IMG/VR virus record: IMGVR_UViG_3300035182_001078
Span: 1 to 44,779 of that record
Strand: one strand, 5' to 3'
Length of the DNA: 44,779 nt
Source: a virus
Part shown: piece after piece, positions 16,167-36,151 of the stretch
How positions within the stretch are numbered: position 1 is the stretch's first letter
Layout of the letters: each line of letters starts with the position of its first letter
Notes under the pieces: generated by a model
Databases searched by the model: none
Told to the model about the DNA's origin: nothing
Seen by the model: the letters and a program-made list of their open reading frames with translations, nothing else
Translations under genes and position numbers: made by a program

Positions 16167-18353
16167 TTAATATTTGTATATTTTAGCAGAACGTATTATT
16201 TGAAAAGAGTAAGTTGAAAGTACTGAATTATCTGTTGCTTTTATTCCAGTAAAAGTAATTTTATAAGGAACATCAAGAGATAAAGTAGTTAAAGGAGTAA
16301 TATATATCCTATTATTAACTATTCTATATGATGAAGATACTGTTCCTGATGTTTTTGTTATCTTTACACTTGTTACAGAAGAAATTTGCTTACTCATTTC
16401 TATATATATATCAGATATAGTTAATCCGCACGATACAGATGTTGGGCTAACTGATAATACCGATAATGATAATACAGGAGCAGCGTTAACTGTAATTTGT
16501 ATATTATCTACAGAAGTTGCACCTAAGTTATCAGTAACAGTAACCTTTAGCAAATACACTCCTTCAACTAATCCTGCAGCAGTTGCATTTTGAGATGTTG
16601 GATTTTGTATAGTTAATGAAGGACCTGAAACTTTTTCCCAAAGATAAGATGCTATTGTACCATCAGGGTCTGAAGCTGTTGCTGATAAAGAATAAGAGTT
16701 AACCGGAAGCGTTATAGAAGCATCTGTTCCAGCATTTACAGAAGGAGATATATTGCCACCAGAAGAAAATTCTACAGCTCCAATATCTATCGATAATCCA
16801 GAAAAAGAAATGCCTACATCTGTTCCGGCATCTATTAATGTAGAAGAAGATTGCAGGCTGTATGTATTACCTGTATTAAATAAAGGATTTTCGTTTTTGT
16901 TTCCACTGTTAGTTAAGTTAGATGGAGAGTTATCAAAGACGGGAGCATTAACTCCTGTAAAAAAAGCATTTTGCCAAAAGTCGTTATTTTGAACTACGAA
17001 TTTTCCGAATGTAACACCAGATCCCTGAACTCTCATTCCGTAAGAGTCGAATTTCTGTATAATGTTATTTCTAATACTTACATTATTTACAGTGCCAGGA
17101 ATGTTGTTTAAAACTAAGCCTATTCCATTTCCTGTAAAAAATCCAGTAGTAGCTCCAACTATTGTATTATTATCAATAATTAAAGTATCTAAATCAACTG
17201 TTGAATTTGGTTGAGTATCGAATCCTATACCTCCACCACCGTTAGCTCCGTATTTACCTATATTATAAAAAATATTTTTTCTTATTTTTATATTATGGTA
17301 ATAGTTAAGAGGGTCCATTGGAGCTCCAAACCATTCTACATAGATATCGATTCCGGAGCTTAAATTATAAAATTTATTATTTTCTACTATTAATCCGTCT
17401 ATCCCACGTTCAAGAATAATACCCTGTTCATCGCTCGAGCTTAAACTATCTTTATGAATAAAGTTATCGTGAATATAGTAACTATATGCAAGTCCAGGAG
17501 ATCTTAAATTATACGCCAAGTCAATGGCTCCGTTAATGTTATTATTATAAATTTCATTACCGCCCAGACTGTTCCATAACTCAATCGAAAAGTTCCATCC
17601 GCTGTTAGCTCCATTATTAAAAAATGTTTTTGTTATCGTGTTATTATATATTTTTACATTTTTATTAAAACCCTCGTTGTTATACTTAATAGGCCAGCCA
17701 ACTAAAGAACCTGTTCTGTTTGGCTGGTTTATTGTGTTATCGTAAATAAGCAATCCATCTTGACCGCCAAAAGAAAGGCATCCTGTACCAAATCCTATAT
17801 ACTGACTACAATTAAGAACAGTATTATTGTAAAAAGAGTTTCCTGTAGCAAATACGGATGGAGGGTTTGCACTGTATCCATTTGTTCCCGAAAATGTGCA
17901 ACCGCCTTCTTTAAAATCAATTATTGTGCAATCGTGAACGCTTACATTAGACCTACCGTCGATTTGTATACCCAAAGCAACAGATAAATTATTTCCATCG
18001 AACTTTAAATTGCTTATCGACTGATTTCCATTTGTACCTTCTGCACTTACAAGACTTAATGCACCCTGAAAACTTACATTAAAGGTTGACTTTATAATAG
18101 ACGTGACACCTTCTCCGTCTAAGCTTACACCAGGCGCTAAAGAGCATTTTACTGTTTCTAAATAAGTTCCTGCATTTACATGAATATTATCTCCAGATGT
18201 AGTAACTGTCGATATAGCTTTTGCTAATGTTTTCCAAGGATTACCTAGTGTACCATTACCTGTGTTATCGTTACCAGAAGAACTGATATAAAAAGTTGTG
18301 GCATTTGTCCACAAAGAAAATAGCATTGATGCTATTAGTAGGAATTTTTTCAT
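16167..18353 (-). CDS. Secreted-type beta-helix protein with PKD-like and Ig-like domains
   Basis: 728 aa. A Sec signal peptide (MKKFLLIASMLFSLWTNA, 1-18) precedes FYISSSGNDNTGNGTLGNPW, the usual opening of pectate-lyase-like right-handed beta-helices. Repeated N-rich rungs (IIDNNTIVG, IYNNTI) run to about 530. A PKD/REJ-like domain (about 540-630; SATASDPDGTIASYLWEKV) and a Big_5-like Ig domain follow. It resembles tail spikes and polysaccharide lyases. In the tail-fibre cluster it may be a depolymerase or adhesin, but the signal peptide is unusual for a virion part. No catalytic residues can be assigned. Confidence 0.82.
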   Translation of the reverse strand: MKKFLLIASMLFSLWTNATTFYISSSGNDNTGNGTLGNPWKTLAKAISTVTTSGDNIHVNAGTYLETVKCSLAPGVSLDGEGVTSIIKSTFNVSFQGALSLVSAEGTNGNQSISNLKFDGNNLSVALGIQIDGRSNVSVHDCTIIDFKEGGCTFSGTNGYSANPPSVFATGNSFYNNTVLNCSQYIGFGTGCLSFGGQDGLLIYDNTINQPNRTGSLVGWPIKYNNEGFNKNVKIYNNTITKTFFNNGANSGWNFSIELWNSLGGNEIYNNNINGAIDLAYNLRSPGLAYSYYIHDNFIHKDSLSSSDEQGIILERGIDGLIVENNKFYNLSSGIDIYVEWFGAPMDPLNYYHNIKIRKNIFYNIGKYGANGGGGIGFDTQPNSTVDLDTLIIDNNTIVGATTGFFTGNGIGLVLNNIPGTVNNVSIRNNIIQKFDSYGMRVQGSGVTFGKFVVQNNDFWQNAFFTGVNAPVFDNSPSNLTNSGNKNENPLFNTGNTYSLQSSSTLIDAGTDVGISFSGLSIDIGAVEFSSGGNISPSVNAGTDASITLPVNSYSLSATASDPDGTIASYLWEKVSGPSLTIQNPTSQNATAAGLVEGVYLLKVTVTDNLGATSVDNIQITVNAAPVLSLSVLSVSPTSVSCGLTISDIYIEMSKQISSVTSVKITKTSGTVSSSYRIVNNRIYITPLTTLSLDVPYKITFTGIKATDNSVLSTYSFQIIRSAKIYKY
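18307..18321 (+). repeat. Dispersed motif GTCCACAAAGAAAAT
   Basis: Exact 15-mer within the signal-peptide codons of the beta-helix gene, 32-46 nt after its ATG. Here it encodes part of LFSLWT; in the spanin gene the same bases encode IFFVD in another frame, so protein constraint does not explain it. Confidence 0.8.
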
Positions 18354-18374
18354 TTTTTTAAGTTTATTTTATAA

Positions 18375-19034
18375 TTATTGATACCATCCAGAATTAAAAC
18401 CAGTAGGAACTGTGTAAATAAATGGTCTTGTACCAGAATTTAATACACATCCTCCAGTTGCATTAAAATTAGAGAATGCCAAGAAAAATGTTCCAGATAA
18501 ACCAGTATAAATTGCTCCTGTTCCAGCACTTGGATTACCTGCATCCCAAGAACCATTTCTTCCCCACCATATCCTACCATTAGTTAAGTCTATAGCAATC
18601 ATCATAATATCTCCATTAACACATTCTGTACTTACAAAATCATTTATTCCATTATGTTGATGTCCACTAACTCCATTTCCTTTTCCATAACCTATTCCAG
18701 CACCAACTTGGCCTGTATTAGATTCTGATGCAGGAGATATACCTATTGATGAAGATGGTGTTGCTCCAATTACTTTTAATTCAACATACCATAATCCAGA
18801 AGATTTTCCAAAATGACTTCTTACCATTCCCATAAACGTTCCGCCTGTTGCAGCTCCTGTTGCAGTAGAATCAGAAGTACTTAATGTAACCTGTGAAAGA
18901 TCAGACGAGTTCCATGAATCATAAGTTATTGCAGGACTTAGGGTTATATTTCCATAATGAGCATTAAATTTTCTTATTTGCGCATTTAAAGATATAGAAA
19001 ATAAAACAAGTAATAATAATAATATCCTTTTCAT
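18375..19034 (-). CDS. Secreted-type SPRY-like protein
   Basis: 219 aa with signal peptide MKRILLLLLVLFSISLNA followed by Gln (Q19). The mature part looks like a SPRY/B30.2 domain as found in phage fibres: GLWYVELKVIG, GIGYGKGNGVSGHQHNGIN, GDIMMIAIDLTNGRIWWGRN followed by GSWDAGNPSAGTGAIY. Such domains are binding modules. It lies between the beta-helix gene and the giant fibre, 6 nt after the latter, so it is probably an adhesin or fibre accessory. Confidence 0.75.
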   Translation of the reverse strand: MKRILLLLLVLFSISLNAQIRKFNAHYGNITLSPAITYDSWNSSDLSQVTLSTSDSTATGAATGGTFMGMVRSHFGKSSGLWYVELKVIGATPSSSIGISPASESNTGQVGAGIGYGKGNGVSGHQHNGINDFVSTECVNGDIMMIAIDLTNGRIWWGRNGSWDAGNPSAGTGAIYTGLSGTFFLAFSNFNATGGCVLNSGTRPFIYTVPTGFNSGWYQ

Positions 19035-19040
19035 ATATAA

Positions 19041-22000
19041 TTAGTTTACAGATCCCTCTGTTGAAAATGTATTTACACCAAGTTTAGTGAATTTAATATA
19101 ACTTCCAGCTTTCATCAAGTTAGTTCCACCTGGATTAGCAGAGAAATTTATTTGAGGAGTAACTGTTCCTCCTGCGTTCATTGATATAACTCCTTTAAAA
19201 AAGAACTGAACGCCTGCTGTTGTAGATGTTGCGGTAATTACTGTTGAAGCAACTTGTGTCATCGCTGTAGTACCTTGAGCAGTAGTAACTGTATTTGGAA
19301 CAGAATTATATCCTATAACCTGAAGGTTAATAAAATTTATAGAAGCTCCTCCTGCTAGTGCAAAAGCTAGTGCGGTTGTTTTAGTTGTTGTAGTTCCGGT
19401 TGTTAAAGTATAACTACCTTCAACTTGGTATAGAGTAGAACCAGCTAATGTCCAAACATCTCCGGTTGTAGGAAAAGCTGGCTGAACTCCTAATGCAGCA
19501 GATAATGTAAAATCTGTAGCAACTACAGAATATTGAGTAGCTCCAATAACTCCTCTTTCTGTTGATGTTTGCCCCATGTGTAAAACATTGCTTGCATCAG
19601 ACTCTATTTTACCTGTTGTTATAGTTCCTGGACTTGCTCCTGCTAATGTAATAGTTTTTCCTGTTGCATTACCTATAGGCAAATCTGTAGAATATTCAAA
19701 GACCCATCCACCTGCTGCAGTTGTTGTATCTGTTACTGTAGCCATTGCTGATGTACTTCCAATCATTGTTGCAAGTAATGTTCCGCCGTTTTTATTTACA
19801 GTAATATTTCCAGTAGATAAATCTTTTAATAAATAACTCGTTCCTTTTCTTAATGTAGTCGCATCAGGCAAAACTGCTGTCTGTGTTGATGTTCCTGTAA
19901 AGTCTGTTTCGTTAGGGCTATTTACTGTAAGAGTTGTTGTACCTGCGGCAGTAACAACAGATTGAAAATTATTTCCTACTATATTATTAATCTGAATATT
20001 TGTTAAAGCTGGAGCGTTTGCAAATACTAAAGGCCCAGCACCTGTTTCGTCGCTAATTACACCAGACAACTGATTGCTTGTAGTAGATGCAAATTGCGAA
20101 AGAGGATTATCCACAATAGCATCTCCTGTTCCGGATACTGTAGCCCAAGACGGATTTGCTGCTGCTCCATTTGTCTTTAATAACTGGCCGCTTGTGCCCG
20201 GTGCTAAGGAAACTATTTTTGTTCCGTCCCCATAATAAATATTTCCATGTGTCACAGATAAAGATCCGTTATTTGTTCCACCGTTTGCAATAGGCAAAAC
20301 AGGCAGGTCTGCTGACGCAATAACCCTTAACCCAACAGCTCCCGTAGAACCGTTAGGTGTTGCTAAAAATAAATTCGCTGCCTGTCCTGTAGCTTCTGTA
20401 ACTGCTAACGTTCCATTGGATGTTAACGGGGAACCCGAAACGCTTAACCACGAAGGAACTGTTAAGCCTATACTTGTTATACCAGTTCCGGCTGATGGTA
20501 CTGGTCTTTTTCCAAAAAATCCGGTTGTTGGATTCCAAACAAGTAAACTGTCATCTACATTATTAGAAGAAGGTATAACAGGAACCTTTATTTTATCAGC
20601 TTTAATAATATTAATATTACTATCCATGTAGTTATAAAATATAACTGCACCACTTGTAGAGTATACTACAGTTCCAGCTCCTAAAGATTTTGTTGATATT
20701 CCTCCCTGACCTGCATTTGTTGCTGAAAAGTATGCACCTGCTGAAGAACTTGTATTTATTCCGCCAAGAAATCCTGTCGAGTTACCAGTCACGCTCATAT
20801 ATCCTGCTGGAGTAGAAGATGAATTACCTCCCCAAAAAGAAACGCCTGCTGTTCCAGTGTTGTCGATTGTGAAAGAATTAGTAAGACCATTTATATTTCT
20901 TGGTGATGTTAAGCTGCCATTAGAGTTGAAAATATTAAATTTTAGGTAAGGACTTAACATTGCCGCAGTATCTTGTTTTCTTAAATACTTTAAAAGCATG
21001 TTTGCAGTATCTGATATATTAACCTTTAAACCTAAATTAGAAATCGTTGCATAGGTATCTGCGGATATATTAGAACGAAAATACGACGAAAGCATAGCAG
21101 ACGTGTCTGCGATACCTAAATAATTCCCTGCCGGCTGCTTATTATTAAAAGTTGTCCAATCTGTTGTTGACAATAAACCTCTGTTACTTGCTGAAGCTGT
21201 TGGTATATTAAACGTATGCGCTGTTCCTGTAGAAGAGATATTGAAATTTGTTCCGCTTGTTCCGGTTGCAAACGTTTGTGTACTTCCAGTAAGTCCGTTT
21301 AAAGATGTCAGCCCGCCGCTGAATGAAGGCACAGCAGCTTTATGAAAATATCCATCCGTTCCTTCGTATATCATATTTATAGGCGAGCCTGTACTATCCC
21401 TTGCTTGTGTAGCAATGTTATAATCTCCCGTTACAATGTCCCTTAAATGCCACCTTATTGTGTGACTGCCTGTTATATTATCTTGCAGCAAAATTGCATC
21501 TCCTAAAGGTTTAGGCCACGAAACACCGCTAGCTAACTGCACATCTCCCGATGCTAATAAAGCAGCTACCTCGTTATGAGAAGCGTCGAAAACACTTACC
21601 CTTCCCTCTCCGCCATCGTTAATCATTTGCGCCAAAGGGTCTGTTCCATCATTTATTATAATATTATTTGTTGTTGTATTGCCTGCGGTAGTAACCTGAT
21701 TTAATGTAGGTACTATTTCAGACACGCTGTCTGCATAACGCCTTGTCGCAAATAGCGTGCTATCTGTTCCAACATTTACAGAGTCCTTTCTTAAATTAAA
21801 AATTTCCGGCAACTTCGAAATTAAGTAGTTTGCAATCCTTGTATTGCCTCCGTCGTTAAGATGAACGCCCCCAAGATAATCGTCCGGATACACCATTAAA
21901 TTATTCACGTGAACAACGCTATCCTGCGGAAGTCTTATTGTGTCAAGCCTTAAATTTAAGCTATCTAACTGGAGCCATCCACCTGCGCCAAGAGTGCTAT

Positions 22001-23750
22001 ATCTTTTTGTATTGTCGACAAATACTATTCTATTCCCCTGCGACCTGAATCTTTTTATAATAGAGTCCTGATAAATTCTTGATTGAGCGTTACTTATTCC
22101 CCAAACAGGATTGTTCCCATCTACTCCAAACAATATAATAATTTTATTTTTAAGTGCATCGAGTTCTTTGCTTCTGTATAAATATTCAGGAGAAGCAAGA
22201 CCAGCAGAAGCCATTATATTAATAGGTAAGGCAGTATGTAATTGAGCTTGCTTAAACATAGAGCTATCCCTTTTTGTTGTAAGAAATGCAGCAGGAATAC
22301 TATTTCCTAATACAGCAATTTTAAATTCCTTTGGCTTTGAAATAGAAAAATCGATAATCCGAGTATTTCCTTTGTCGCTAAATATTGCCGGCCATCCGGT
22401 AATACTTGTATATTCTCCGGGCCCAACTGTAAAATAAGATCTTCTTCCTAAATCTTTAGACTCTCCACTTGTTAAGTTTTTATAGTGAAGAGCTACACTA
22501 TCTAATTCCCTATCCATTGTAACCTGAACATAATCCCATTTATTAACAAGTAAGCCTGAAGAAGTTTTTGTCATGTTGCTGCACTTGTTGTTCATTGTAG
22601 AACCAGTAGTGTCGCCTAATATAGGTATATTTATCCAGTTGACAGCATTAAGATTTGCAGACAGTGTCGAATTATATGCGTTTGCTTTTATACCTGTTCC
22701 AATTCTTAAAGAACTGGAGCTGTCCAAAACTTGGAATATTAATCTTATAGAAAAATTTTCGTTAAAGACGTTTCCGTAATCAAATGCTTTAAAATAACTA
22801 TTTTCAATTCCTCCCGAGTAACTTGTATTTATAATTAACCCGTTATTCCAGTAAGCAGAACCGCTCGGAAAAACAGGTACTAAAGTTGAGTCCTGAAATG
22901 TTAAAGGCCCTGAAATTAGATTAGTATAGTTTGTATAATCGATTCCAATAAATCCCTTTGTGTATCTTTTTAATGTATCGTTAATATGATACGGAGTTGT
23001 GTATTTAGAACTATCTCTTTTAGATAGCTTAGTATTTAAAGAATCTTGTAAGTCTGTAATCTTAGATTGACCTATTGCAAAAACACTTATATCAGTCGAA
23101 TTATTTCCAGTATTATCGTCTGCATTAAATTCGCTTCCAAAGTTTATTTTTTTTCTCTGCGGTTGCGTTACGCCTGCTTTTTGAAGTGTATCGTAATGAA
23201 GGTCGGCAGTAACAAGCGTTCCTACATTAAACACTCTGTTTGTAGATAAGTCATATGTAACAGAGTTTATTGTAATAGTTGTTACCTTGTCCGCTTTTAA
23301 ATTTATCCTATCTGATAAATGAGTTGTATCGGTACTTCCACCACTTCCTCCAATACCTTTTATTTTCACTGTATCATTTCTAAGATTTGGACGATAAAGC
23401 ACAAAAATAGAATCGTTTATCGCTTTAGCAGAATCATAAGAATTATCTATACGTGTAGATAAATGAGATGTATCTAAAAAAGCATTATGCCCGCCTGCTT
23501 TAAAAAATCCAGTTGGTTTATAGTATACCCATAAAGAACTATCTTTTTTATTTATAAACATCTGAGCAGTACTGTCATTTGTATTAAGTAAAGTACTATC
23601 TTTTTGTGGAATATGCTGAACAAAAACAGCCTTTAATCTATTTACTTTTTCTCCATAAAATGTAGGAGTTTCCGGTAAATACTTTTGCGCTTTTGCTAGT
23701 CCACAAAAGAAACCGATTGATGTAAAAATTAAAACTAAAATCTTCTTCAT
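19041..23750 (-). CDS. Giant tail fibre with SGNH esterase domain and signal peptide
   Basis: 1569 aa. Signal peptide about 1-21 (LAKA) followed by Gln (Q22). Residues 22-300 are fibre-like. About 478-650 is an SGNH/GDSL hydrolase: block I AVLGNS (about 482), later MASAG, GVDGNN and YLGGVHLND (His about 629). The usual Asp three residues before that His is Gly. The rest (about 700-1569) is low-complexity fibre repeats rich in Thr/Ser/Asn/Gly (NGGTNNGSLS, LNGLTGSTQTF). It should bind host glycan, with the esterase acting on acetyl or other ester groups. Its end is followed by the SPRY gene. Confidence 0.85.
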   Translation of the reverse strand: MKKILVLIFTSIGFFCGLAKAQKYLPETPTFYGEKVNRLKAVFVQHIPQKDSTLLNTNDSTAQMFINKKDSSLWVYYKPTGFFKAGGHNAFLDTSHLSTRIDNSYDSAKAINDSIFVLYRPNLRNDTVKIKGIGGSGGSTDTTHLSDRINLKADKVTTITINSVTYDLSTNRVFNVGTLVTADLHYDTLQKAGVTQPQRKKINFGSEFNADDNTGNNSTDISVFAIGQSKITDLQDSLNTKLSKRDSSKYTTPYHINDTLKRYTKGFIGIDYTNYTNLISGPLTFQDSTLVPVFPSGSAYWNNGLIINTSYSGGIENSYFKAFDYGNVFNENFSIRLIFQVLDSSSSLRIGTGIKANAYNSTLSANLNAVNWINIPILGDTTGSTMNNKCSNMTKTSSGLLVNKWDYVQVTMDRELDSVALHYKNLTSGESKDLGRRSYFTVGPGEYTSITGWPAIFSDKGNTRIIDFSISKPKEFKIAVLGNSIPAAFLTTKRDSSMFKQAQLHTALPINIMASAGLASPEYLYRSKELDALKNKIIILFGVDGNNPVWGISNAQSRIYQDSIIKRFRSQGNRIVFVDNTKRYSTLGAGGWLQLDSLNLRLDTIRLPQDSVVHVNNLMVYPDDYLGGVHLNDGGNTRIANYLISKLPEIFNLRKDSVNVGTDSTLFATRRYADSVSEIVPTLNQVTTAGNTTTNNIIINDGTDPLAQMINDGGEGRVSVFDASHNEVAALLASGDVQLASGVSWPKPLGDAILLQDNITGSHTIRWHLRDIVTGDYNIATQARDSTGSPINMIYEGTDGYFHKAAVPSFSGGLTSLNGLTGSTQTFATGTSGTNFNISSTGTAHTFNIPTASASNRGLLSTTDWTTFNNKQPAGNYLGIADTSAMLSSYFRSNISADTYATISNLGLKVNISDTANMLLKYLRKQDTAAMLSPYLKFNIFNSNGSLTSPRNINGLTNSFTIDNTGTAGVSFWGGNSSSTPAGYMSVTGNSTGFLGGINTSSSAGAYFSATNAGQGGISTKSLGAGTVVYSTSGAVIFYNYMDSNINIIKADKIKVPVIPSSNNVDDSLLVWNPTTGFFGKRPVPSAGTGITSIGLTVPSWLSVSGSPLTSNGTLAVTEATGQAANLFLATPNGSTGAVGLRVIASADLPVLPIANGGTNNGSLSVTHGNIYYGDGTKIVSLAPGTSGQLLKTNGAAANPSWATVSGTGDAIVDNPLSQFASTTSNQLSGVISDETGAGPLVFANAPALTNIQINNIVGNNFQSVVTAAGTTTLTVNSPNETDFTGTSTQTAVLPDATTLRKGTSYLLKDLSTGNITVNKNGGTLLATMIGSTSAMATVTDTTTAAGGWVFEYSTDLPIGNATGKTITLAGASPGTITTGKIESDASNVLHMGQTSTERGVIGATQYSVVATDFTLSAALGVQPAFPTTGDVWTLAGSTLYQVEGSYTLTTGTTTTKTTALAFALAGGASINFINLQVIGYNSVPNTVTTAQGTTAMTQVASTVITATSTTAGVQFFFKGVISMNAGGTVTPQINFSANPGGTNLMKAGSYIKFTKLGVNTFSTEGSVN
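23699..23712 (+). repeat. Variant of the dispersed motif (GTCCACAAAAGAAA)
   Basis: One extra A relative to the main form, within the signal-peptide codons of the giant fibre, 38-51 nt after the ATG. This mirrors the copy in the beta-helix gene. Confidence 0.6.
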
Positions 23751-25105
23751 ATTAGAACGTATTTGTTTGTTAAGTAATTTTCAGGACGATTTTTTACTCC
23801 TGTATTTATTATAAAATCTTTATGGTCTGGTGCTCCAAGAGGACCATCAGTAACACCAAAATTTGCAGCACTTCCTGTATGTTGAACAAGTGGTAATATT
23901 AATGTAAATTGGCCAATACCTCCTGAGTCATAATCTCCTGCTTTGCCAGCTTTATTGTTTTGCTCAAATAAACCTCTTCTGTCAGGTATATGAAACTCGT
24001 CTGCATGTCCTGGATCTGAAGAGTTTGCAAATGAATACAAGTATTTATTATTTCCAGTAGACCAAACATCGTAGTCGCAAACCTGTACAAGAGGTAATTG
24101 AGAAACAACTTCTTCAAATAATCTTGAGTATTTAAACTTGTTTAAACTGTCTCCATTTAAAAGTTTCATATCCTGTCTTTCACTTTCATTATGGTCTGCA
24201 GATACAATAAGTCCAACCTTTTTAAAGTTTCCTTCTGTATCGCATACCCTCCACTCTATAGGAGATGCTGGTCTTGCATAAGCATAAATTGAAAAACTTT
24301 CTCCTGAGTTTGCTATCAATATCCCGTCAAGGAAATTAATAGTATCTGCTCCATTTGGTAAAAATTTTGCACATCTTATTCCAGTTCCACCTATTTCAAC
24401 CATCATCTTTCTTCCTTGTGGAATTGTACTAATATCAGGAAGTGTAATTTTAACATAGTTTCCTGATGGTTCAACTATCAACTTTTTTGCAAAATAACTA
24501 TCATCTAATACAGTATCTGCTGTTATTAAGTTTATACCAAAATCTGTTATAGTAGGATAACTGTTTCCTATAGGATTTTGAACTGGGTCAAAATGTATAT
24601 TATAGTAAATATTAGCAGGAAATGTATCGTCTGTAATAAGTAATGAAAATACACCAGTTATTTTATCCCAAGAATAATCTAATTCACGAACAAGTATCCC
24701 TCTGCCAGTTAACTCTGATGGAACTATTTCCCATCCTATATAGTTTGGCTTTCCGGAAGTTCCATCAAATATAGCAGATGTTGCACCTGTTACAAAACCT
24801 GGAGTTGTTCCAACTCTTATCTGTTCATCATCCCTACACAGTAATCCATCGACTTGTCCTGGAACAACAGAGAATAATGCAAGATTATTTACAACAGAAC
24901 CACCTCCATCTATTTCGTCAAGAGAAAACTGATAGTTATTACGAGGTAGTCCTGAAAATGACCAAACTCTCTGAGGATGTCCAGATGTTGTATCTATTAT
25001 AGATGCAATTATAGCTCCACCTGTTTCTTGTCTTACAGATGCCTTTATCCTATTTGTTATAAAAGGATAAGCCTTGGATATTGCGTTTAGTGCTACTGTT
25101 GGCAT
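23747..25105 (-). CDS. Tail protein with C-terminal phage tail-collar domain
   Basis: 452 aa. The C-terminal part (about 310-452) is a tail-collar domain: LLNGDSLNKFKYSRLFEEVV, then FHIPDRRGLFEQN, DYDSGGIG and the ending RPENYLTNKYVLI. Residues about 85-190 form a beta-rich module (DDEQIRVGTTPGF, LVRELDYSWDKITGVFSLLI, YYNIHFDPV) that also occurs at the N-terminus of the neck-region protein at 34893-35741. It likely connects tail tip and fibres. It overlaps the giant fibre start by 4 nt and has its own promoter box at 25121-25128. Confidence 0.82.
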   Translation of the reverse strand: MPTVALNAISKAYPFITNRIKASVRQETGGAIIASIIDTTSGHPQRVWSFSGLPRNNYQFSLDEIDGGGSVVNNLALFSVVPGQVDGLLCRDDEQIRVGTTPGFVTGATSAIFDGTSGKPNYIGWEIVPSELTGRGILVRELDYSWDKITGVFSLLITDDTFPANIYYNIHFDPVQNPIGNSYPTITDFGINLITADTVLDDSYFAKKLIVEPSGNYVKITLPDISTIPQGRKMMVEIGGTGIRCAKFLPNGADTINFLDGILIANSGESFSIYAYARPASPIEWRVCDTEGNFKKVGLIVSADHNESERQDMKLLNGDSLNKFKYSRLFEEVVSQLPLVQVCDYDVWSTGNNKYLYSFANSSDPGHADEFHIPDRRGLFEQNNKAGKAGDYDSGGIGQFTLILPLVQHTGSAANFGVTDGPLGAPDHKDFIINTGVKNRPENYLTNKYVLI

Positions 25106-25120
25106 TTTTTAAATATTATA

Positions 25121-25128: not shown

Positions 25129-25171
25129 CAAAATAGATTAATACAAAAGTCATTTGTTGATAATTAATAAC

Positions 25172-25293: not shown

Positions 25294-28200
25294 TTACAAC
25301 GAGATGTTTATTAACTGCCCTGCTGGTAATCCAACTGCTTCTGCATCCACAACAAGAACCACTCCCTCATTTGTCTCGCCATCTGAATTAGGAAATTCTT
25401 TTCCACCTTGATTTTCTTGCAGATGCATTTCAACTACATAATAGTATAATGGATGACCATCAGTTTCTTCAGCAGGGTCTATTGAACCTCCTTCTGGAAG
25501 TGAATATAAAATATCTTCACAAGAAAAACCATCAAGAGCTATTGCATCAGCACATTTAAGATACAGGTAATCTGGAAGTCCATAAGCATTTCCAAAACGT
25601 ATATTTCGTTTCCTTGCTACGTTTCCAAATAATGTTATAGTGTTTCCAATATCGTCTGTAGATATACTAGTGTCAACACTTGGTTGTAATTTTTCTATAT
25701 GTCCTTCTACACGTAATACAGTTTGAAAACCTGTAGAAAAAAACGAGCCAACTTTATTAGTAGAGTTTTTAGATTTTATTAAAATAGTCTTTTCCCACCT
25801 GTCTCTTGTTTCAATCCTTTCAGATATTGCTATTGGAGTGTCACCAGCCCAAAGTACAAAAAAGTACTGGTTTTCTGGTTGCAACGAAAAATCTATTTCG
25901 CATTCAAGGCAAACATGAGGTACTGGTATTGGAGCTGGATTTACTGGATTGTAATTATAGGTTGCAACTTCCCTTCCGTCAAAACATAGATATTGCTTAA
26001 GAACTAAACTACCAACTCCATTTGATATTACTTGGTCTCTTATAACTTCTCCTGTTTGATACTTTTGTATATAATCTGGATTGTAAAGCCATGCAGTATT
26101 CCTGTTTGAAAACCAGTCATCATAAATGGTCTTAAAATTAAGATTTGGATTATCTGGAAAGTTATAAGTTACAAAATGCAGTGAATTATAGTTAGAGTGA
26201 AACATAGAGAATTTTTTTAAGTTTATTGATAGGCCACTCTTTGATAAATTAAGTAACGAGTTATAAGTTGTTAATGGAGATAATAATAGACTCCATTCTT
26301 GAACCTGATTCCTTAATCCAGATATTTTCATATTTCCTATTGGTAATGCAAATATATCTGTTCCTTTAAAAGTAAATTTAACTATACCTCCATTAGAAAA
26401 ATCATAAAGAGTCTTTGCAAAAGATTTATATGATTTAACTTTAATATTAGCTTTTTCCATTAAAAACAACGGAGTCCCCAAAGAAGAAACGGGTACGTCT
26501 GAATTTTCGGAAACTACAATACCATTTAAAACAGTTCTTAAGTTACCATTTTTATCTGGCTTTTGAAAAACTATTTTATCAAGTGGCTGCTGATTTACAA
26601 TAGGTTTTATTCTTGGATACTGGTTTTCAAGTATTCTTTTTGGAGAAAATCTTGTATTAAATACAGTATTATCTGGTACACCAGTTATAGAAGAATATAA
26701 TGGGCGATTAAGCTTATATCCTGTAACTACTATACCTACACTATGATTAACAAGAGATGTTGATATTACATTAACTCCATTTTGTATAGGAGCAAGTACA
26801 ACAGCAGAACCTGTAACAGGATCTGGATATGATACAGGTGTAACTTGTAAACTCCAATTTCCATTAGAATCAGCAACAACAGTTCCTAATTTTGCATAAG
26901 TTATATAATTTAACCATACTTCAACAACAGTTCCTGGAATAGCAACACCTTCAATTAAAGGCATGTTATTAACTAATACAAATCCATCTAATTCAGAACC
27001 TATGTAAGTTATTAACGGAAAACTTACATTTGTATCTACATTAAAATTAGCTGTATCTGCTCCTGCATTTATTGAAAGTAAATGCGCTCCATTGGATATT
27101 ACAGGAATTTTATACTCCCACTTATTAGAATTATCTGTAACAACAGTTGCTACAAATACACCATCAAGAGAAATATCTATATTTGTTCCGGCCTGTGAAC
27201 TACCTTTTAATAAAGGTTTATTATTATAAAGATTAGAGTTTGGTTCTGGATAAGATATTACAGTAGACATTACAGATACTGTGTCTATAAAAAGATTTAT
27301 TAAACTATTAGGGCCAGATAAATCAGTATAAGTAGCTTGTATTATGTGTCTTCCTGTTGTTGTTGGAGGGTTAAATGGTGTTAATGCAATTGCTATATTA
27401 TAAGACCAGTTGCCATTAGCATCAGCAACAGTTCCTCCATCAATAACAGTATCTATATATATATTAACTACACTTAATGGAATAGCGATACCTTTTAAAA
27501 ACGGTTTATTATTAGTTAAAGCGTCGTTATCAAAAGGCGACTTTATTACAGGTTCAAGTAAAGCAATATCTATATTTACATTTTCAAATGTTTCTATATT
27601 ATCAATAGCTGTACCTTGCTCATCTGTTATATCAAGAACATAAACAGATTTATCTCCATTATTATCTTGTGTATTTTGTCCTTGATAATCAAGTACAAGA
27701 AATATAATATCATAGCATCCAAGTCTATACTTAGGAATAAACTCTATTTTTTTATTAACTGATAACCTTGGTAAAGAAAATGTATTTTCAGAATTAAATT
27801 CAAGTCTTCCACTTGGATGTCTGTAGTCTTGTTTAGGAGAACCTACTACTATTTCATTCCCATCATACTCTTCCGCAAAAGCAATATCAACATCTATCGC
27901 TTCTCCCAAATCTATTATTGTATAACCTTGTTTATATACATCAATAGCTTTCTCGATAAAAATATCTCCATTAACGTCTTTTAATGCCATAAAAAACATT
28001 GCATTAAAAGAATCAAAATAATCTTTAAATGAAGTATATATTTTTGAATTAGGTATTCCTCTTATAGCATCACCACTTGTAAGTACTGATTTATTATTAG
28101 TAGTAAAATATCCACTATTTATACTAAACCTTTTATTTGTAGCCTGTTCAACTATATCCTTTCCTGCATCAAGTGGTCTAAGTGCATAAACAACTTGTGG

Positions 28201-29211
28201 TGCTGTTTTTGTTTTAGTTGATATATAAATATTAGTTACGAATGGAGTTATGGCAAAATTAATTTCTGAAGTATCTCTTGAATGTACCTCTGAAACTAAA
28301 AATATACTTTCTGATTGAGCTAGATTAAAAGTAAAATCGAAGTTAATATCGTATATCTTATCACCTACTAAATTCCTATCATTAAATATTACAAACTTCT
28401 GTGCATTGCTAGTATATAAAGATATAGTAACGTGTCCATTATTCTCAAAACCAAATTTTACATTACCATTAGCCTTTACTCCATTTATAGTATACGCTGT
28501 TGACATAGCCCAACTCTTAGAATTCTTTAATTGAAAAAGAGTTGTAAAGTATTCAAGAGTTTGATTCTTTGTTATTATGCCAAAACTATCACCACTTTGA
28601 TTTATTAAAACAAACGGCATAGTATTACAGTCATTAAGAATATCTACCGGTATTCTTTGAGGAACTGTTTGATATGTATAGTTATTTTCAAGATTCATTT
28701 CATCTATAAGAACTCTTATAGCTTTTGGATTTCTTGAATTACACTCTATTGCATACTCAACACTATCATTTTGAGATAAAACACCCCATGCTGAATCATC
28801 TATACAATTAACAGTAAATACTCCACTTTTTGATTTATCAACTTTTGTATTAAAATCAACTTTTCCATAATAAGCAAGTTCGTATATACCTCTATCTCCA
28901 TTCCATATTATTATTGTTATATACGTTTTTTCCTGAGAACCTTTCCCTTTGTAATAACAATTTTTTAGTATAGCAGCTCCGTCTTTAATAAAATCCAAAG
29001 AGTCTGTAACTGTTCTTGCAAGTGAAAAATAAGATGAATTTGTTCCAAACTCGAAATTGCAAGTTTGTATTTTTGATGGAGTATATTTTATAGGATAAGG
29101 TAAAGAATTCTTGGATATAGAATAGTCACCATTAGGCTGTTGAATAGCCTTATAGAATTTTCTGTTTTCGTCAGATATAAGAACGTATATTTCTTTTTGA
29201 TTTCTATTCAT
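25294..29211 (-). CDS. Large tail-tip protein with three Ig-like repeats
   Basis: 1305 aa, directly after the tape measure with a one-base overlap, the position of distal-tail/baseplate-hub proteins. Residues 1-480 have a tail-hub-like character. About 560-830 hold three bacterial Ig-like repeats, each with a NNKP(F/L)LKG or NNMPLIEG opening and a (V)AD(A/S)NGNWSY/SL strand. The C-terminal 450 residues are beta-rich with several Trp. Ig-like modules on tail tips are thought to help bind surface glycans. Exact function is inferred from position and architecture. Confidence 0.75.
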   Translation of the reverse strand: MNRNQKEIYVLISDENRKFYKAIQQPNGDYSISKNSLPYPIKYTPSKIQTCNFEFGTNSSYFSLARTVTDSLDFIKDGAAILKNCYYKGKGSQEKTYITIIIWNGDRGIYELAYYGKVDFNTKVDKSKSGVFTVNCIDDSAWGVLSQNDSVEYAIECNSRNPKAIRVLIDEMNLENNYTYQTVPQRIPVDILNDCNTMPFVLINQSGDSFGIITKNQTLEYFTTLFQLKNSKSWAMSTAYTINGVKANGNVKFGFENNGHVTISLYTSNAQKFVIFNDRNLVGDKIYDINFDFTFNLAQSESIFLVSEVHSRDTSEINFAITPFVTNIYISTKTKTAPQVVYALRPLDAGKDIVEQATNKRFSINSGYFTTNNKSVLTSGDAIRGIPNSKIYTSFKDYFDSFNAMFFMALKDVNGDIFIEKAIDVYKQGYTIIDLGEAIDVDIAFAEEYDGNEIVVGSPKQDYRHPSGRLEFNSENTFSLPRLSVNKKIEFIPKYRLGCYDIIFLVLDYQGQNTQDNNGDKSVYVLDITDEQGTAIDNIETFENVNIDIALLEPVIKSPFDNDALTNNKPFLKGIAIPLSVVNIYIDTVIDGGTVADANGNWSYNIAIALTPFNPPTTTGRHIIQATYTDLSGPNSLINLFIDTVSVMSTVISYPEPNSNLYNNKPLLKGSSQAGTNIDISLDGVFVATVVTDNSNKWEYKIPVISNGAHLLSINAGADTANFNVDTNVSFPLITYIGSELDGFVLVNNMPLIEGVAIPGTVVEVWLNYITYAKLGTVVADSNGNWSLQVTPVSYPDPVTGSAVVLAPIQNGVNVISTSLVNHSVGIVVTGYKLNRPLYSSITGVPDNTVFNTRFSPKRILENQYPRIKPIVNQQPLDKIVFQKPDKNGNLRTVLNGIVVSENSDVPVSSLGTPLFLMEKANIKVKSYKSFAKTLYDFSNGGIVKFTFKGTDIFALPIGNMKISGLRNQVQEWSLLLSPLTTYNSLLNLSKSGLSINLKKFSMFHSNYNSLHFVTYNFPDNPNLNFKTIYDDWFSNRNTAWLYNPDYIQKYQTGEVIRDQVISNGVGSLVLKQYLCFDGREVATYNYNPVNPAPIPVPHVCLECEIDFSLQPENQYFFVLWAGDTPIAISERIETRDRWEKTILIKSKNSTNKVGSFFSTGFQTVLRVEGHIEKLQPSVDTSISTDDIGNTITLFGNVARKRNIRFGNAYGLPDYLYLKCADAIALDGFSCEDILYSLPEGGSIDPAEETDGHPLYYYVVEMHLQENQGGKEFPNSDGETNEGVVLVVDAEAVGLPAGQLINISL

Positions 29212-32096
29212 TATCTTCCAAGAATTCTTCTTTTATAATTTTCGTTACCAAGATTAATATTTATTATATTATTATTAACTGATTGCTTTGATGATTTTTT
29301 AAACTGCTTTGCTAACCATCTTGTTTGTTCCCAACCATTACTGTTTCCGAATACTATTGTTTCTTTTACTTCAGGAATGTCCGCAAAAGGAATTACATCT
29401 GTTCCAGGTGGTAAATATGATATATTATCTTTTGTTACAAAGTATGGAGATTTATAAGGCTCTAGTATAAGTTCTGGCACATCACCTTCACCAGTTCTAG
29501 CAAAACCTCCCTTGTGTTTATTACCCTTTGTTCCGTACTTGTATTCAGGTATCTTTGATGATGCTACAGCTGCTAGTCCAACAACACCTTCTGCTGCTTC
29601 AGAAAATTTGCCTTCAACAGACGCAATTGCTATTCCTGCAATAAGTTTTGCTATTGCTATTGCTTTATCAAAAACTGCTTGGTCGTATTTAATTTTTCTT
29701 TGTTCTTTATCAAACGCCTTATCAGCCTCTAGTTTTTGTTGATTAAGTTGTATATCTAATGCAGTTTTATCTTTTTGAGACAAAGAAGACTTTTCAATAG
29801 CATTTATCTCGGAAGTATACTGTTCGTCTGTAAGTTTTTTAAGCCTTTCGATATGAGCTACCCTGTAAGCATACTCTTCATCAAGTATCTTTTTTGTTGC
29901 CTCTAATACAGAAAGTTCAAATTTTATAGCAGATTCAAATCCTTTATTATTGCCTTTAGAAGGCCCTTCCTTTTCTAATTTAAGTTTATCTGAATTTAAC
30001 TTATCCTGGGCAACTTTTATATCCTTATTAACATCTACTTGGACTTGCTTAGCAGCCTCTAATTCTCCTTGTGCACTATCAATAGCAAGTTTATTTCCTC
30101 CAGCCTTTGCAATGTCAAGACGTTTTTCTGCAGCATCAACAAGAAAATCTATTCTTTTACTTTTAAATCTTTTTAACTGATCTAACTGTATTTCATCATA
30201 AACTATAGATGCTTGTAACTCTTCTTTACGATACTTTTCGTCAATTTTTCTTCTCTCTTTTTGATACTTATCATAAGATAGATTTTTGGCATTTAAAGCT
30301 TCAAGAGCTTTTGTATAACTTTCTTTACTTAAATCATCCTCTGTTTTAGCTTCATCCTCTACAGCTTTTAATTGTTTCCGTAAAGAAGAGTACACAATGT
30401 CATATACTTTCTTTTCAGCATCTGCTTGCAAGTTTGATTTTTGTAAATTTGTAGTTAATACTAAAGCTTGTTCTTCTTCTAGTGTTAATGCTGTTTTACC
30501 ACCTTGTTTTGATGCTCCTTTTTGTAAGTCTTTATTAAGTTCAAGTTCTTGTAATTTTTGTTTATCAAGAACATAATTTTTATAAGCATCGAGTCTTTCT
30601 GATAAAGAATTATTTTCGTTATTAAAAGCCTTTTCATTCTCTATTGCATCTTTTTCAAAATATGCTTTATTAAGTTCTGTTTTTGCTTTTAGATTTCTTT
30701 GGTAGAATTCTGTTTGTATTTTAAGTATTTCTTCTTCTCTTTTTTGTTCTGATATTATATCTTCATCAGAAGCTTTTTTAATAGCTACTTTTACATCAGA
30801 AGGAGTACTTGAATTATTTGCTGTTATATTATATTTGTTAATACTGTCAAGTCTTTTTGTAGCTTTTTCTATTTCTTTTGCAGCATTAATACGTTCTTTT
30901 GAAGTAGAAAGTTCGCTAGATAAAATCTGTTTGTTTTTATCTAATATTACAGATATTTCAGATTTTGTAGTTTCAACTAAAAGTTTTCTAGCTTCGTCAG
31001 CGTTAAATTTAGCTATTTCAGCTTCTTTTTTAGCTATATCATTTTTTGCTGATTCAAACAGGTTTATTATCTTTAATGTTTCATCATACTCGTTTTGAGC
31101 TAATGATAATCTAGATTTTTGCTCTTCTATCCTTGGCTTGGTTTTATCATCAGCTTTTACTCCATTAAATATACCCTTGCTTGCAGTTATTCTTTCTAAT
31201 GCATTTACAGAATTTGTTGCATCTCTTATTGTTTCTAATAATGAAGCAGACTTATCTTTAAGTTTATCTATGTATAGTTCATCAAGAGGTTTTGATATCG
31301 CTTGACTAGAATTTATAGCTCCACTTAAATCTCTTTCACTAACTATTATACCTTTTCTTAATTCTGCAAGATTATTTTGAGCTATAGCTAGTTGGTTTTG
31401 TAATAAAATACCTTTATTGTCGCCTGTTGCAGAAATTATATCTTCTCCTCTTTTTAAATTAAGAGTTGAACCTATTACAGCTGTTTGCTGATACGCTTTT
31501 GCAGATTTTTCTAGTTTTTCATATAGTGTTATACTATCATTTAAACTTTTATTTAATTCAGTATTCCTGTCAATTATAAAAGTTTCGGAATCTCCAAAAG
31601 AAACAAGTGCGTGTGCTGCACCACTTATTGCTTCAAATGCTAGATTAAAAATACCTGCAATGCCAATACCTGGAAGTATATAAGCTAGTTGCCTTATTTT
31701 ACTATACATTCCAGTTAAATTTTTTCCAGTATTTTCTATTGAATTACCAGCGTTTTTTACTGCAGTTGTTGTATTATTTAATGCTGTAGTAGCACCATTT
31801 GCTGCAACTGTAACATTTTTAATAGCAGATACTGCAGGGGTAGATTGTATTATAGGAGTAACTTGTTTTGCATTAAGAGAATTTATCTGTGTATTTATTT
31901 GAGAAAGTAAATCAGATGTTTCTTTAATAGATTTATTAAACGCAGCAAGTCCACCTCCTATTACAGGAGAGTAGACTTTTCCATCGTACTTAGAAAGTTT
32001 ATCAAATAAAGCAATAAACTCATTAAGTCTTTTTTTCTTGGCATCGTCGAAGCCAGAAACATCTAAACCTAATTGTAAAAAGCTTTGACCTGGCAT
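29211..32096 (-). CDS. Tail tape measure protein
   Basis: 961 aa. Long helical, Lys/Glu/Ala/Gln-rich stretches dominate (about 175-780). Hydrophobic segments lie near 137-165 (YILPGIGIAGIFNLAFEAIS) and near 820-855 (AIAIAKLIAGIAIASVEGKF). A Gly-rich C-terminus (GTKGNKHKGGFARTGEGDVP) is seen in many tape measures. Length and order, after the tail chaperone-like gene and before the tail tip, fit. By the usual rule of about 1.5 Angstrom per residue the tail would be near 140-150 nm, supporting a siphovirus form. Confidence 0.9.
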   Translation of the reverse strand: MPGQSFLQLGLDVSGFDDAKKKRLNEFIALFDKLSKYDGKVYSPVIGGGLAAFNKSIKETSDLLSQINTQINSLNAKQVTPIIQSTPAVSAIKNVTVAANGATTALNNTTTAVKNAGNSIENTGKNLTGMYSKIRQLAYILPGIGIAGIFNLAFEAISGAAHALVSFGDSETFIIDRNTELNKSLNDSITLYEKLEKSAKAYQQTAVIGSTLNLKRGEDIISATGDNKGILLQNQLAIAQNNLAELRKGIIVSERDLSGAINSSQAISKPLDELYIDKLKDKSASLLETIRDATNSVNALERITASKGIFNGVKADDKTKPRIEEQKSRLSLAQNEYDETLKIINLFESAKNDIAKKEAEIAKFNADEARKLLVETTKSEISVILDKNKQILSSELSTSKERINAAKEIEKATKRLDSINKYNITANNSSTPSDVKVAIKKASDEDIISEQKREEEILKIQTEFYQRNLKAKTELNKAYFEKDAIENEKAFNNENNSLSERLDAYKNYVLDKQKLQELELNKDLQKGASKQGGKTALTLEEEQALVLTTNLQKSNLQADAEKKVYDIVYSSLRKQLKAVEDEAKTEDDLSKESYTKALEALNAKNLSYDKYQKERRKIDEKYRKEELQASIVYDEIQLDQLKRFKSKRIDFLVDAAEKRLDIAKAGGNKLAIDSAQGELEAAKQVQVDVNKDIKVAQDKLNSDKLKLEKEGPSKGNNKGFESAIKFELSVLEATKKILDEEYAYRVAHIERLKKLTDEQYTSEINAIEKSSLSQKDKTALDIQLNQQKLEADKAFDKEQRKIKYDQAVFDKAIAIAKLIAGIAIASVEGKFSEAAEGVVGLAAVASSKIPEYKYGTKGNKHKGGFARTGEGDVPELILEPYKSPYFVTKDNISYLPPGTDVIPFADIPEVKETIVFGNSNGWEQTRWLAKQFKKSSKQSVNNNIININLGNENYKRRILGR

Positions 32097-33132: not shown

Positions 33133-33148
33133 AAAATAATTTTACCTC

Positions 33149-33180: not shown

Positions 33181-33182
33181 AA

Positions 33183-33362: not shown

Positions 33363-33382
33363 AATATAAACTTTTAGTACCT

Positions 33383-33418
33383 AAAAGGCCCGCCTCATTT
33401 ACGAGAGCGGGCTTTTTA
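33383..33418 (-). terminator. Rho-independent terminator after the tail-tube gene
   Basis: GCCCGC (33388-33393) pairs with GCGGGC (33407-33412), extended by CTC/GAG with one bulged base and flanked by AAAAG/CTTTTT. It sits 19-50 nt beyond the stop of the 312-aa gene. Confidence 0.8.
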
Positions 33419-33436
33419 ACCAAACAAACAGTGATA

Positions 33437-34375: not shown

Positions 34376-34377
34376 TT

Positions 34378-34896
34378 TTAACAGGTTTTAATTTGATTTA
34401 AAATAATTTCCAAGTTCAAAATTTCTACTGAATCAATATAGTCACTAGAACCTTCTCCAATAGGTTGCTGTCCTGGATTGTCCATTTTTATATGAACAAA
34501 TCTATCAGGGTCAGAAAAAATTGTGTATTGGCTTTGAGCTAATTGATTCATAAACTCATTATAACAAGGGTATAGTATAGATTTAAAATTTCCATCTTCA
34601 TCATACCTTGGAAGAACATTTTCAGAACCTGTTCCACTTTTAGTAAGTGTAGCTATAACTATTCTTGGTACAATACATTTAACGTAACCAGATGAACCAC
34701 GCTGTTCACGTATAGGAAGTAAAATAGCGATTAAAGGATATTTCAAATCTTTTAAAGATGTAGAATTATCTAAATCGTTTATGCTTTTAAGTATCTGCAA
34801 ACTTCTTCCAGGCTGATAGTTAATAGTAATGTTAGGAACTTCCATAGAATTAATTACGGACTCAAACATTTTAACTATAACTATATCTTCAATCAT
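34378..34896 (-). CDS. Putative tail terminator/neck protein (172 aa)
   Basis: No firm family. The pattern NITINYQPGRSLQILKSIND, YPLIAILLPIREQRG, IVIATLTKSG and the end SVEILNLEIILNQIK fits the small proteins that cap the tail and join it to the head, encoded just before the tail tube. It overlaps the 282-aa gene by 4 nt. Confidence 0.55.
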   Translation of the reverse strand: MIEDIVIVKMFESVINSMEVPNITINYQPGRSLQILKSINDLDNSTSLKDLKYPLIAILLPIREQRGSSGYVKCIVPRIVIATLTKSGTGSENVLPRYDEDGNFKSILYPCYNEFMNQLAQSQYTIFSDPDRFVHIKMDNPGQQPIGEGSSDYIDSVEILNLEIILNQIKTC

Positions 34897-35741
34897 ATAC
34901 CAAACTGATTTATTTTCCTTGTGGAATTTAATGATTTGCAGTATTGTGTGTAATCAAATTCTGGATACATTCTTGTTCCGTCATCTTTTTTCATTGTCCA
35001 CAAAAAGAAAAGAAGGTAACGTGTCTCGTTGCTGAAAAAATTCCATGCATCAATCATCTTGAATGAAGGAGTAGCTGTTATTCCAGCTTCTGCTTTATTT
35101 TTAACCTCTGCAACTCCTGTTGTTTGTGTAACAGATGAGCGCTGAAAATAAAAGTAAATAAAACTGGCTATTAAGCTAATATTCTCGTCACGAATAAGAC
35201 CTTGCCATACATATAATTTCTCGTTGTAGGTAAACTCTGTACCAAAAAGAATATTATCCATTCTTGGACTGTCCTCTGTAACAAATGCTTTAAATAATCC
35301 ATACCCAAAAGCTAATTTTAAACATTCCTGTTCATATTTAGCTATAAAAGTATCCAACCTGTCAAGTATAGGATTGATTCCTCTAACCTTAGGAATTATG
35401 TTAGGAATAGTTATATCTCCAACAAAAAATGAATAGTTAATTAAATTAGAGTGTATTCCTACTACAGATTGATTTACTTCTTGAAAATGAACATTGTATG
35501 TAGCATCAGTTATAAAAACTGTAGCTATATTTTTAAATACAAATATTCCAGTTTGGTAATCCCATGTATAATCAATACCTCTTATAAGTACATCGCCTCC
35601 AGCTTCTGAAAATGTTGGAACGTATCCACGATAATCTGGACTTCCACCATTGCCATCAAAAGTAAAAGATGACGAGCCTGAAATTAATCCGACTGTTAAG
35701 TCAACTTTTATCTGCTCGTCATTTTTTACTTGGGTTGGCAT
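34893..35741 (-). CDS. Neck-region protein sharing a module with the tail-collar protein
   Basis: 282 aa. Residues about 8-95 (NDEQIKVDLTVGLISGSSSF, DYRGYVPTF, VLIRGIDYTWDYQTGIFVF, YNVHFQEVNQSVVGIHS) are homologous to part of the protein at 23747-25105. The remaining part (about 100-282) is helical and aromatic-rich (YEQECLKLAFGYGLFKAF) as in connector proteins. Order after capsid genes suggests a head-tail connector component. A motif variant lies inside the gene at 34996-35011. Confidence 0.65.
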   Translation of the reverse strand: MPTQVKNDEQIKVDLTVGLISGSSSFTFDGNGGSPDYRGYVPTFSEAGGDVLIRGIDYTWDYQTGIFVFKNIATVFITDATYNVHFQEVNQSVVGIHSNLINYSFFVGDITIPNIIPKVRGINPILDRLDTFIAKYEQECLKLAFGYGLFKAFVTEDSPRMDNILFGTEFTYNEKLYVWQGLIRDENISLIASFIYFYFQRSSVTQTTGVAEVKNKAEAGITATPSFKMIDAWNFFSNETRYLLFFLWTMKKDDGTRMYPEFDYTQYCKSLNSTRKINQFGI

Positions 35742-35755
35742 TACTCAGGTATTAT

Positions 35756-36151
35756 TTAGTTTTGTAATTTTGCAACAACAGTTGCTGTAACAGTAGTAGC
35801 ACCACCTACACGTATTCTCCAGTACCTTGCAGTATTGGTTTTATTCCAGTAGTACGTTCTTGTTGCAACGTTTGTTATTGTTAACGTGTCTCCGGCATCT
35901 GAAACGTAGTTATCTGTAGGGCTAATTCTGTATTCCAAAATAGCTGTACCTGCGCCTGTTCCTGTTACCTTTGTGTATGTCATACCAATAAGGGTTCTTT
36001 GATAACCCTGAGACGTTGAGTATGACATAGTATCTACAGATGCATTTAGTATAGCTCCTGTTGGGCTACTTGTTGTTTGGCTAAACTTGGATTGTGAATT
36101 TGCTGAAACAGCAAATCCAGCAATCGAAAGTAATAATATTACTTTTTTCAC
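35756..36151 (-). CDS. Secreted-type small protein next to the capsid gene (131 aa)
   Basis: Signal peptide MKKVILLLSIAGFAVSANS followed by Gln (Q20). The mature part is a Thr/Ser-rich beta domain (TGAGTAILEYRISP, TYYWNKTNTARYWRIRVGGA). It lies between the major capsid gene and the neck protein, where a decoration or head-completion protein would be expected, yet it is marked for export. It may be a capsid decoration protein or an unrelated cell-surface protein. No family is recognised. Confidence 0.7.
   Translation of the reverse strand: MKKVILLLSIAGFAVSANSQSKFSQTTSSPTGAILNASVDTMSYSTSQGYQRTLIGMTYTKVTGTGAGTAILEYRISPTDNYVSDAGDTLTITNVATRTYYWNKTNTARYWRIRVGGATTVTATVVAKLQN

Follow-up and report, generated by a model that had tools for sequence, protein, structure and literature searches.

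The 44,779-base stretch of DNA analysed here (the window; 33% G+C) is one complete IMG/VR virus record, IMGVR_UViG_3300035182_001078, and carries a siphophage gene set on its minus strand, from the terminase through the lysis block. Four genes of its capsid-tail block, one between the major capsid and adaptor genes and three in the fibre block, code for proteins that begin with a signal peptide (SP) of the Sec/signal peptidase I (SPase-I) type. Judged from the sequences, these SPs look genuine and retained, three of the four follow the Q-rule (Gln at position +1 of the mature protein), and they recur across a group of related phages rather than being peculiar to the window. Moreover, the SP appears to be a removable module that stands exactly ahead of virion-type domains, which also exist without an SP at the same loci. 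In the reading that we prefer, to which we give a probability of about 45%, fibres and a decoration- or cement-like protein would be exported by the Sec/SPase-I route and attached late to the virion. The four genes and their SPs are listed below; a slash marks the cleavage site, and L- and G-numbers are labels of related loci in this analysis.

35756..36151, minus strand: capsid-side exported protein (predicted), 131 aa, between the major capsid and adaptor genes (family hidden Markov model; AlphaFold2)
36095..36151, minus strand: SP of the capsid-side protein, 19 aa, GTG start, ANS/Q20 (rule scan; GTG kept in L007 and L016)
19041..23750, minus strand: SP-bearing large tail fibre of 1569 aa
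23688..23750, minus strand: SP of the large fibre, 21 aa, AKA/Q22 (rule scan)
18375..19034, minus strand: fibre-block protein, 219 aa, with SP; its mature part matches phrog_37978, phrog_10080 and the virion structural PHROG 19943
18981..19034, minus strand: SP of the 219-aa protein, 18 aa, LNA/Q19 (rule scan)
16167..18353, minus strand: SP-bearing 728-aa protein of the fibre block, with a right-handed beta-helix, PKD and Ig-like domains and a weak tail PHROG match
18300..18353, minus strand: SP of the 728-aa protein, 18 aa, TNA/T19 (rule scan)

The SPs were scored by rules covering a positively charged n-region, an uncharged hydrophobic core (h-region) and small residues at positions -3 and -1; these rules let through 3 (0.06%) of 4744 internal Met pseudo-starts and 8 (0.19%) of 4320 shuffled N-termini. 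Among all 90 open reading frames (ORFs) of the window, no others than the four genes listed, each located on the minus strand at the position given above, scored above 12, and the next-scoring real gene encodes a lipoprotein (15072-15617). Given a false-positive rate of 0.06-0.19%, four hits in about 50 window genes are far above chance, which bears out the four Sec SPs proposed in a preliminary description of this DNA. All four proteins possess the n-region, the hydrophobic core and the small -3/-1 residues of Sec/SPase-I substrates, and the scan found in none of them a lipobox before Cys as used by SPase II. The predicted mature starts are MKKVILLLSIAGFAVSANS/Q20 for the 35756-36151 product, MKKILVLIFTSIGFFCGLAKA/Q22 for 19041-23750, MKRILLLLLVLFSISLNA/Q19 for 18375-19034 and MKKFLLIASMLFSLWTNA/T19 for 16167-18353. 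Hence, three of the four proteins obey the Q-rule, with Gln at positions 20, 22 and 19 as had been claimed, and the fourth has Thr instead of Gln at +1. Most Sec/SPase-I substrates of Bacteroidota expose an N-terminal Gln, which is then cyclised (PMC5837995, PMC10653852). The capsid-side gene starts with GTG and not with ATG; this start is credible because the orthologues in L016 and L007 share a GTG-AAA start at the equivalent place. The rule scan favours cleavage at A17/N18 in its product; however, S19/Q20 is likelier since the closest homologue (L022, 65% identity) has S/Q at the same place.

Single-sequence scans of IMG/VR with the capsid, capsid-side and distal tail proteins of the window returned zero relatives, and an alignment of distant capsid proteins (A1) led to 80 loci. 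In many of these IMG/VR loci, an SP-bearing gene follows directly after the capsid gene, often with one small ORF between them. The rule scan called an SP in 72 of 1440 ORFs, as compared to the background of 0.06-0.19%, and an [AGSP]/Q site was present in 45 of 58 unique N-termini of the SPase-I type versus 16% of the SP-negative ORFs. At the position between the major capsid and adaptor genes, hereafter called the slot, 19 of 84 ORFs were SP-like, and in each of these the site region contains an [AGSPC]Q pair. From the adaptor to the distal tail gene, the count was 2 of 272, and upstream it was 14 of 459, mostly the capsid protein itself and seldom with Q. A profile of the mature slot domain gathered 82 distinct family members in the loci covered, of which 70 have an SP-like segment ending at the Q site and 12 lack it. 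The search among related phages thus found the same SPs at the same gene positions in many relatives, and the link to the Bacteroidota Q-rule drawn in the preliminary description holds for three of the four window proteins and for these 70 slot-family members. The SP-less slot protein of L202 aligns throughout with the SP-bearing proteins of L210 and L203, its Met coinciding with the mature N-terminus, and in L164 an SP-less slot copy lies 4 nucleotides (nt) after a major head gene.

The slot family has no PHROG or Pfam name, as the window protein and four of five relatives had zero matches above the cut-off; a single weak PHROG match was obtained with the L018 protein. AlphaFold2 predicts the mature slot protein to be a beta-sandwich (pLDDT 71). 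The nearest folds in the PDB, at modest scores, are carbohydrate-binding modules (CBM-like) and similar jelly rolls, the nearest structures in BFVD are small unnamed phage proteins, and sequence searches of the PDB gave no reliable match. With a gene that adjoins the capsid gene and a small domain predicted to be beta-rich, the slot protein has traits of decoration or cement proteins, and the only label that ties the family to capsid binding is the authors' annotation of gp07 of Pseudanabaena phage Pan5. Genome matches of the family lie mainly in metagenome-assembled genomes of Chitinophagaceae and Flammeovirgaceae, which fits Bacteroidota hosts; a Bacteroidota bacterium is also the most likely host of the window phage. 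One IMG/VR record, 3300020045_003522 (L029, L043; 68 kb), has a second, related capsid gene and a second head-tail block, which suggests two joined phages or a chimeric contig.

In the large fibre protein, the SP is followed by a domain that is shared with other fibres of the group:

23511..23687, minus strand: N-terminal domain of the fibre (Y-P-P-YG-K-NR-K), immediately behind the cleavage site (alignment)

This domain matches the fibres of G005 (E 2.6e-15) and G001 (E 3.8e-6). The roughly 50 residues that open the mature window fibre align both with the G005 fibre, which has an SP, and with the SP-less fibres of G001, G002 and G003, in which Met sits exactly where the mature domain of the window and G005 proteins begins. 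A hidden SP is impossible in the fibres of G001-G003, whose genes share their first 4 nt with the gene upstream, the counterpart of the window gene 23747-25105. The distal tail protein is common to the window and to the relatives with SP-less fibres. The N-terminal domain and the position after the distal tail genes mark the 19041-23750 product as a fibre; residues 470-660 or so resemble an SGNH-hydrolase domain by eye only, and Pfam gave nothing significant. Fibre blocks, taken from the distal tail to the lysis genes, were also surveyed in the relatives with a retrievable downstream region. Most of them encode a run of one to five proteins that have both SP and Q; L095 has five and L096 three, and such proteins also occur in L093, L097-L103 and L105. 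Several of these exported proteins have PHROG matches to tail, tail-fibre or tailspike families. The exported fibres of L097 match phrog_8780 and phrog_18179, that of L100 matches phrog_4636, that of L103 matches phrog_2631 and the long-tail-fibre distal-subunit family, and that of L098 has a phage tail repeat and a GDSL lipase domain. Core head and tail genes almost never carry an SP. Since SP-less fibre and slot orthologues occupy the same loci and tail, tail-fibre and tailspike matches occur, the exported proteins appear to be of the virion type.

The slot and fibre SPs tend to occur together. Across 27 capsid loci including the window, scored by eye and with G008, which has two capsid genes, counted twice, both SPs were present in 12, only the slot SP in 3, only the fibre SP in 2 and neither in 10 (Fisher p=0.0018). 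An SPI-type signal was absent from the head-tail blocks of Muminvirus, Leeuwenhoekiella phage Arctus_1, three gut contigs and Polaribacter phage P12002L.

The preferred reading can be laid out as a series of steps. The head and the tail tube would be built in the cytoplasm, and the host Sec/SPase-I pathway would export the fibre proteins and the capsid-side decoration- or cement-like protein; on the strength of the SPs, real export to the periplasm is very probable. There, SPase-I would very probably cleave at A/Q and the new N-terminal Gln would cyclise, and the known pathway suggests folding or oligomerisation in this compartment. The C-terminal sorting domain of the type IX secretion system (T9SS; Por_Secre_tail, CHU_C type) had no Pfam match in the four window proteins and ten related exported fibres. 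Because no T9SS signal is present, the exported proteins would stay in the periplasm, where they may wait until the lysis proteins open the cell. At lysis, the fibres would bind to the distal tail proteins, which are also found in relatives with SP-less fibres, and the beta-sandwich protein would bind to the capsid surface of the virions assembled in the cytoplasm. This attachment at or after lysis is put forward tentatively. It could keep glycan-binding, enzymatic fibres out of the cytoplasm, provide a periplasmic folding environment for the fibres, or stop them from tethering virions before release.

The preliminary description had offered three outcomes: display on the surface of the infected cell or release ahead of the virions, attachment to virions after export or lysis, and a role of the signal in assembly at the membrane. 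Its interpretation is borne out in part, as the SPs are real in the sequence and belong to virion-type proteins. Active surface display is disfavoured by the lack of T9SS C-terminal signals and an uncleaved membrane anchor by the near-universal A/Q site, and attachment at or after lysis would be the best fit of the three.

Several points weigh against late attachment of exported proteins. We infer the presence of the proteins in the virion from position and orthology, and the benefits of export named above are conjectural. The test of slot-fibre covariation ignores phylogeny, the tree allows that a single SP loss in the G001-G003 lineage could explain the pattern in the window clade, and there are discordant records with a slot SP and no fibre SP (G007, G020, G030) or the reverse (G014, G018). 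In the literature searched, mostly without subscription journals, no paper was found on fibres or decoration proteins that join tailed phages outside the cytoplasm. Finally, a simple scheme of export followed by binding does not predict the SPs that lie inside five slot proteins (loci L026, L035, L037, L039 and L061), where the slot gene forms one continuous reading frame with the small ORF ahead of it:

Fused slot proteins: L026 6526-7200; L035 9314-9970; L037 11168-11806; L039 5014-5673; L061 6847-7461

The fused proteins keep the hydrophobic core and the A/Q site inside; the Q site lies roughly 78-94 residues into the protein. An internal start as the explanation was plausible only in L035, which has an internal GTG and a basic n-region; L037 has internal ATGs and no basic n-region, and L026, L039 and L061 have no usable internal start.

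The main rival explanation is that the SP-bearing proteins are secreted effectors outside the virion, derived from fibres and decoration proteins and working as depolymerases, esterases or adhesins. They would act in the periplasm, at the outer membrane or in the medium, where they could, for example, release virions from the capsule, prevent superinfection or condition cells nearby. GDSL/SGNH-like hydrolase domains are present in several exported fibres of relatives, Pan5 gp19 is annotated as heparin-lyase-like, and the predicted slot fold resembles carbohydrate-binding modules. Moreover, some SP-less proteins in the fibre blocks of the same phages could be the real receptor binders, and Q-rule proteins of Porphyromonas phages have been interpreted as such effectors (PMC10367356). 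However, given the SP-less orthologues at the same positions, one domain would have to be a virion part in one phage and a free effector in its relative. Furthermore, no T9SS signal would carry the proteins past the outer membrane, and the genes sit inside the head and tail blocks. On balance, we regard secreted effectors as somewhat unlikely.

It is also conceivable that the hydrophobic N-terminus serves as a membrane tether, with capsids and tails maturing at the inner membrane and the SP recruiting the partners. Of 66 distinct major capsid proteins from the related loci, 15 have a transmembrane- or signal-like N-terminus, mostly without Gln at a cleavage site, for example MKKLKEKRLKKLMILSVILIGIIAGISFVTAPAKA in L067:

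Capsid genes with such an N-terminus: L014, L026, L027, L028, L035, L036, L038, L056, L061, L063, L067-L070, L074

Tethering would also suit the small domain fused ahead of the SP in the five loci described above and the hydrophobic capsid N-terminus beside an SP-bearing slot gene in L117 (1172-2714) and L118 (8904-10402), two Chitinophagaceae Mu-like prophages whose capsid protein is from another family (phrog_267). However, the slot and fibre SPs almost always end at a cleavage site with Q at +1 and the capsid N-termini rarely do, so that only the slot and fibre proteins look like substrates of SPase-I and glutaminyl cyclase. The capsid N-termini were thus set apart as a different phenomenon, since they mostly lack an A/Q site. 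In some members of the group, assembly may include a step linked to the membrane; the window capsid protein, which has no hydrophobic N-terminus, gives no hint of such a step. As a general account of the SPs, tethering is improbable.

Even less probable is export for the sake of O-glycosylation, by which virion parts would be modified in the periplasm at D-[S/T]-[A/I/L/V/M/T], the definition of the general Bacteroidota O-glycan motif (PMC8550257). The motif occurs in 66 of the 70 SP-bearing slot proteins versus 1 of the 12 SP-less ones. However, control patterns are likewise skewed in the slot family, and the SP-less slot proteins come mostly from distant phages. Because the exported fibres are not enriched in the motif (observed/expected 1.05) and L203 and L210 keep the SP and lack the motif, O-glycosylation was not upheld as a general reason for export and could at most be a partial one. 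Chance hydrophobic N-termini or wrong start codons are hardly credible: one gene has a GTG start and AT-rich genomes would readily encode hydrophobic residues, but the false-positive rate is 0.06-0.19%, the SPs recur across phages at fixed positions with Q at +1, and the GTG start of the capsid-side gene is conserved.

The gene order of the window is terminase, portal, protease, major capsid, 131-aa gene, adaptor-position gene, tail genes and tape-measure-like gene, followed by the genes for the distal tail protein and a 452-aa protein, 19041-23750, 18375-19034, 16167-18353 and the lysis block. The other features are:

39857-41128, minus strand: terminase
36215..37618, minus strand: major capsid protein (phrog_10 and capsid alignment A1)
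34893..35741, minus strand: adaptor-position protein, right after the capsid-side gene, without SP
29211..32096, minus strand: tape-measure-like protein (by size and position; no PHROG match), without SP
25294..29211, minus strand: distal tail protein, kept in SP-bearing and SP-less relatives, without SP
23747..25105, minus strand: 452-aa pre-fibre protein, directly before the fibre gene, without SP here and in G001, G002, G003 and G005

The 452-aa protein is 46-50% identical to its counterparts in G001, G002, G003 and G005 and is a possible attachment partner of the fibre. Its residues 87-202 match the post-slot protein of L024 (45% identity), and the N-terminus of the 34893-35741 product resembles this domain; one domain may thus be common to a neck and a tail protein. 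The lysis block contains an M15 peptidase gene and, with a 4-nt overlap, the lipoprotein-like gene 15072-15617 (FLLLSC), a spanin candidate.

In the usual view, virions of tailed phages are completed in the cytoplasm. It is possible, though we would not count on it, that many tailed phages of Bacteroidota instead build their virions in two compartments and add exported, pyroglutamate-capped fibres and decoration proteins at or after lysis. If so, particles released together could swap fibres, host range could depend on the content of the lysate, and studies of fibres in Bacteroidota phages could not disregard SPs. If, on the other hand, the virion lacks these proteins, many 'fibres' annotated by position would be secreted phage effectors. 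The SP-bearing and SP-less orthologues provide a ready natural control.

Virion proteins with cleavable Sec signals are well known from filamentous phages (pIII and pVIII). However, filamentous virions assemble in the membrane and are extruded through it, whereas the window encodes a tailed dsDNA phage with a gene set for cytoplasmic packaging. The decoration proteins Hoc and Soc of T4, gpD of lambda and Dec of phage L are small, encoded near the capsid gene and not exported. They can bind to finished capsids, which makes a late addition conceivable, although no sequence relation to the slot protein is shown. With Sec/SPase-I proteins of Bacteroidota, the window proteins share the n-, h- and c-regions, A-x-A or A-x-S and Gln at +1 (PMC5837995, PMC10653852); unlike these host proteins, they are encoded in the capsid-tail block of a phage.

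A tblastn search of named phages with the window slot protein found nothing, and the L043 relative as query led to Pan5 (ON968456; L251 5001-5402, L252). Pan5 gp07, annotated as 'cement protein', resembles the slot family in its signature TKISGTVAG..DGTNW, in its place between the capsid and adaptor genes, directly after the former, and in its SP with an A/Q site (MKKLFLLVALVIGMASITQA/Q). In the fibre block, gp18 and the heparin-lyase-like gp19 each have an SP and Q as well. In the accessible part of the Pan5 paper, there is no discussion of SPs and no reason given for the cement label; virion proteins identified by mass spectrometry are presented in a figure (PMC9837993). Pan5 differs in that its recorded host is a cyanobacterium. 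However, this host is open to question, given the three Q-rule SPs of Pan5 and the presence of Polaribacter phages among the nearest named relatives of its capsid protein, and the phage might have infected a Bacteroidota companion. Exported fibres as a class were not described in the literature searched. The nearest precedent found is provided by the Nixviridae prophages of Porphyromonas gingivalis, which are reported to have major capsid proteins with SPs and five genes of unknown function that follow the Q-rule (PMC10367356). As in the window group, Bacteroidota phages thus encode SP-bearing proteins with Gln at +1; in the accessible text, the Porphyromonas genes are interpreted as potential modifiers of the outer membrane of the host, with no link to fibres or to the capsid-side family and no SP-less orthologues (PMC10367356), whereas the proteins of the window group sit in the head and tail blocks and have SP-less orthologues there.

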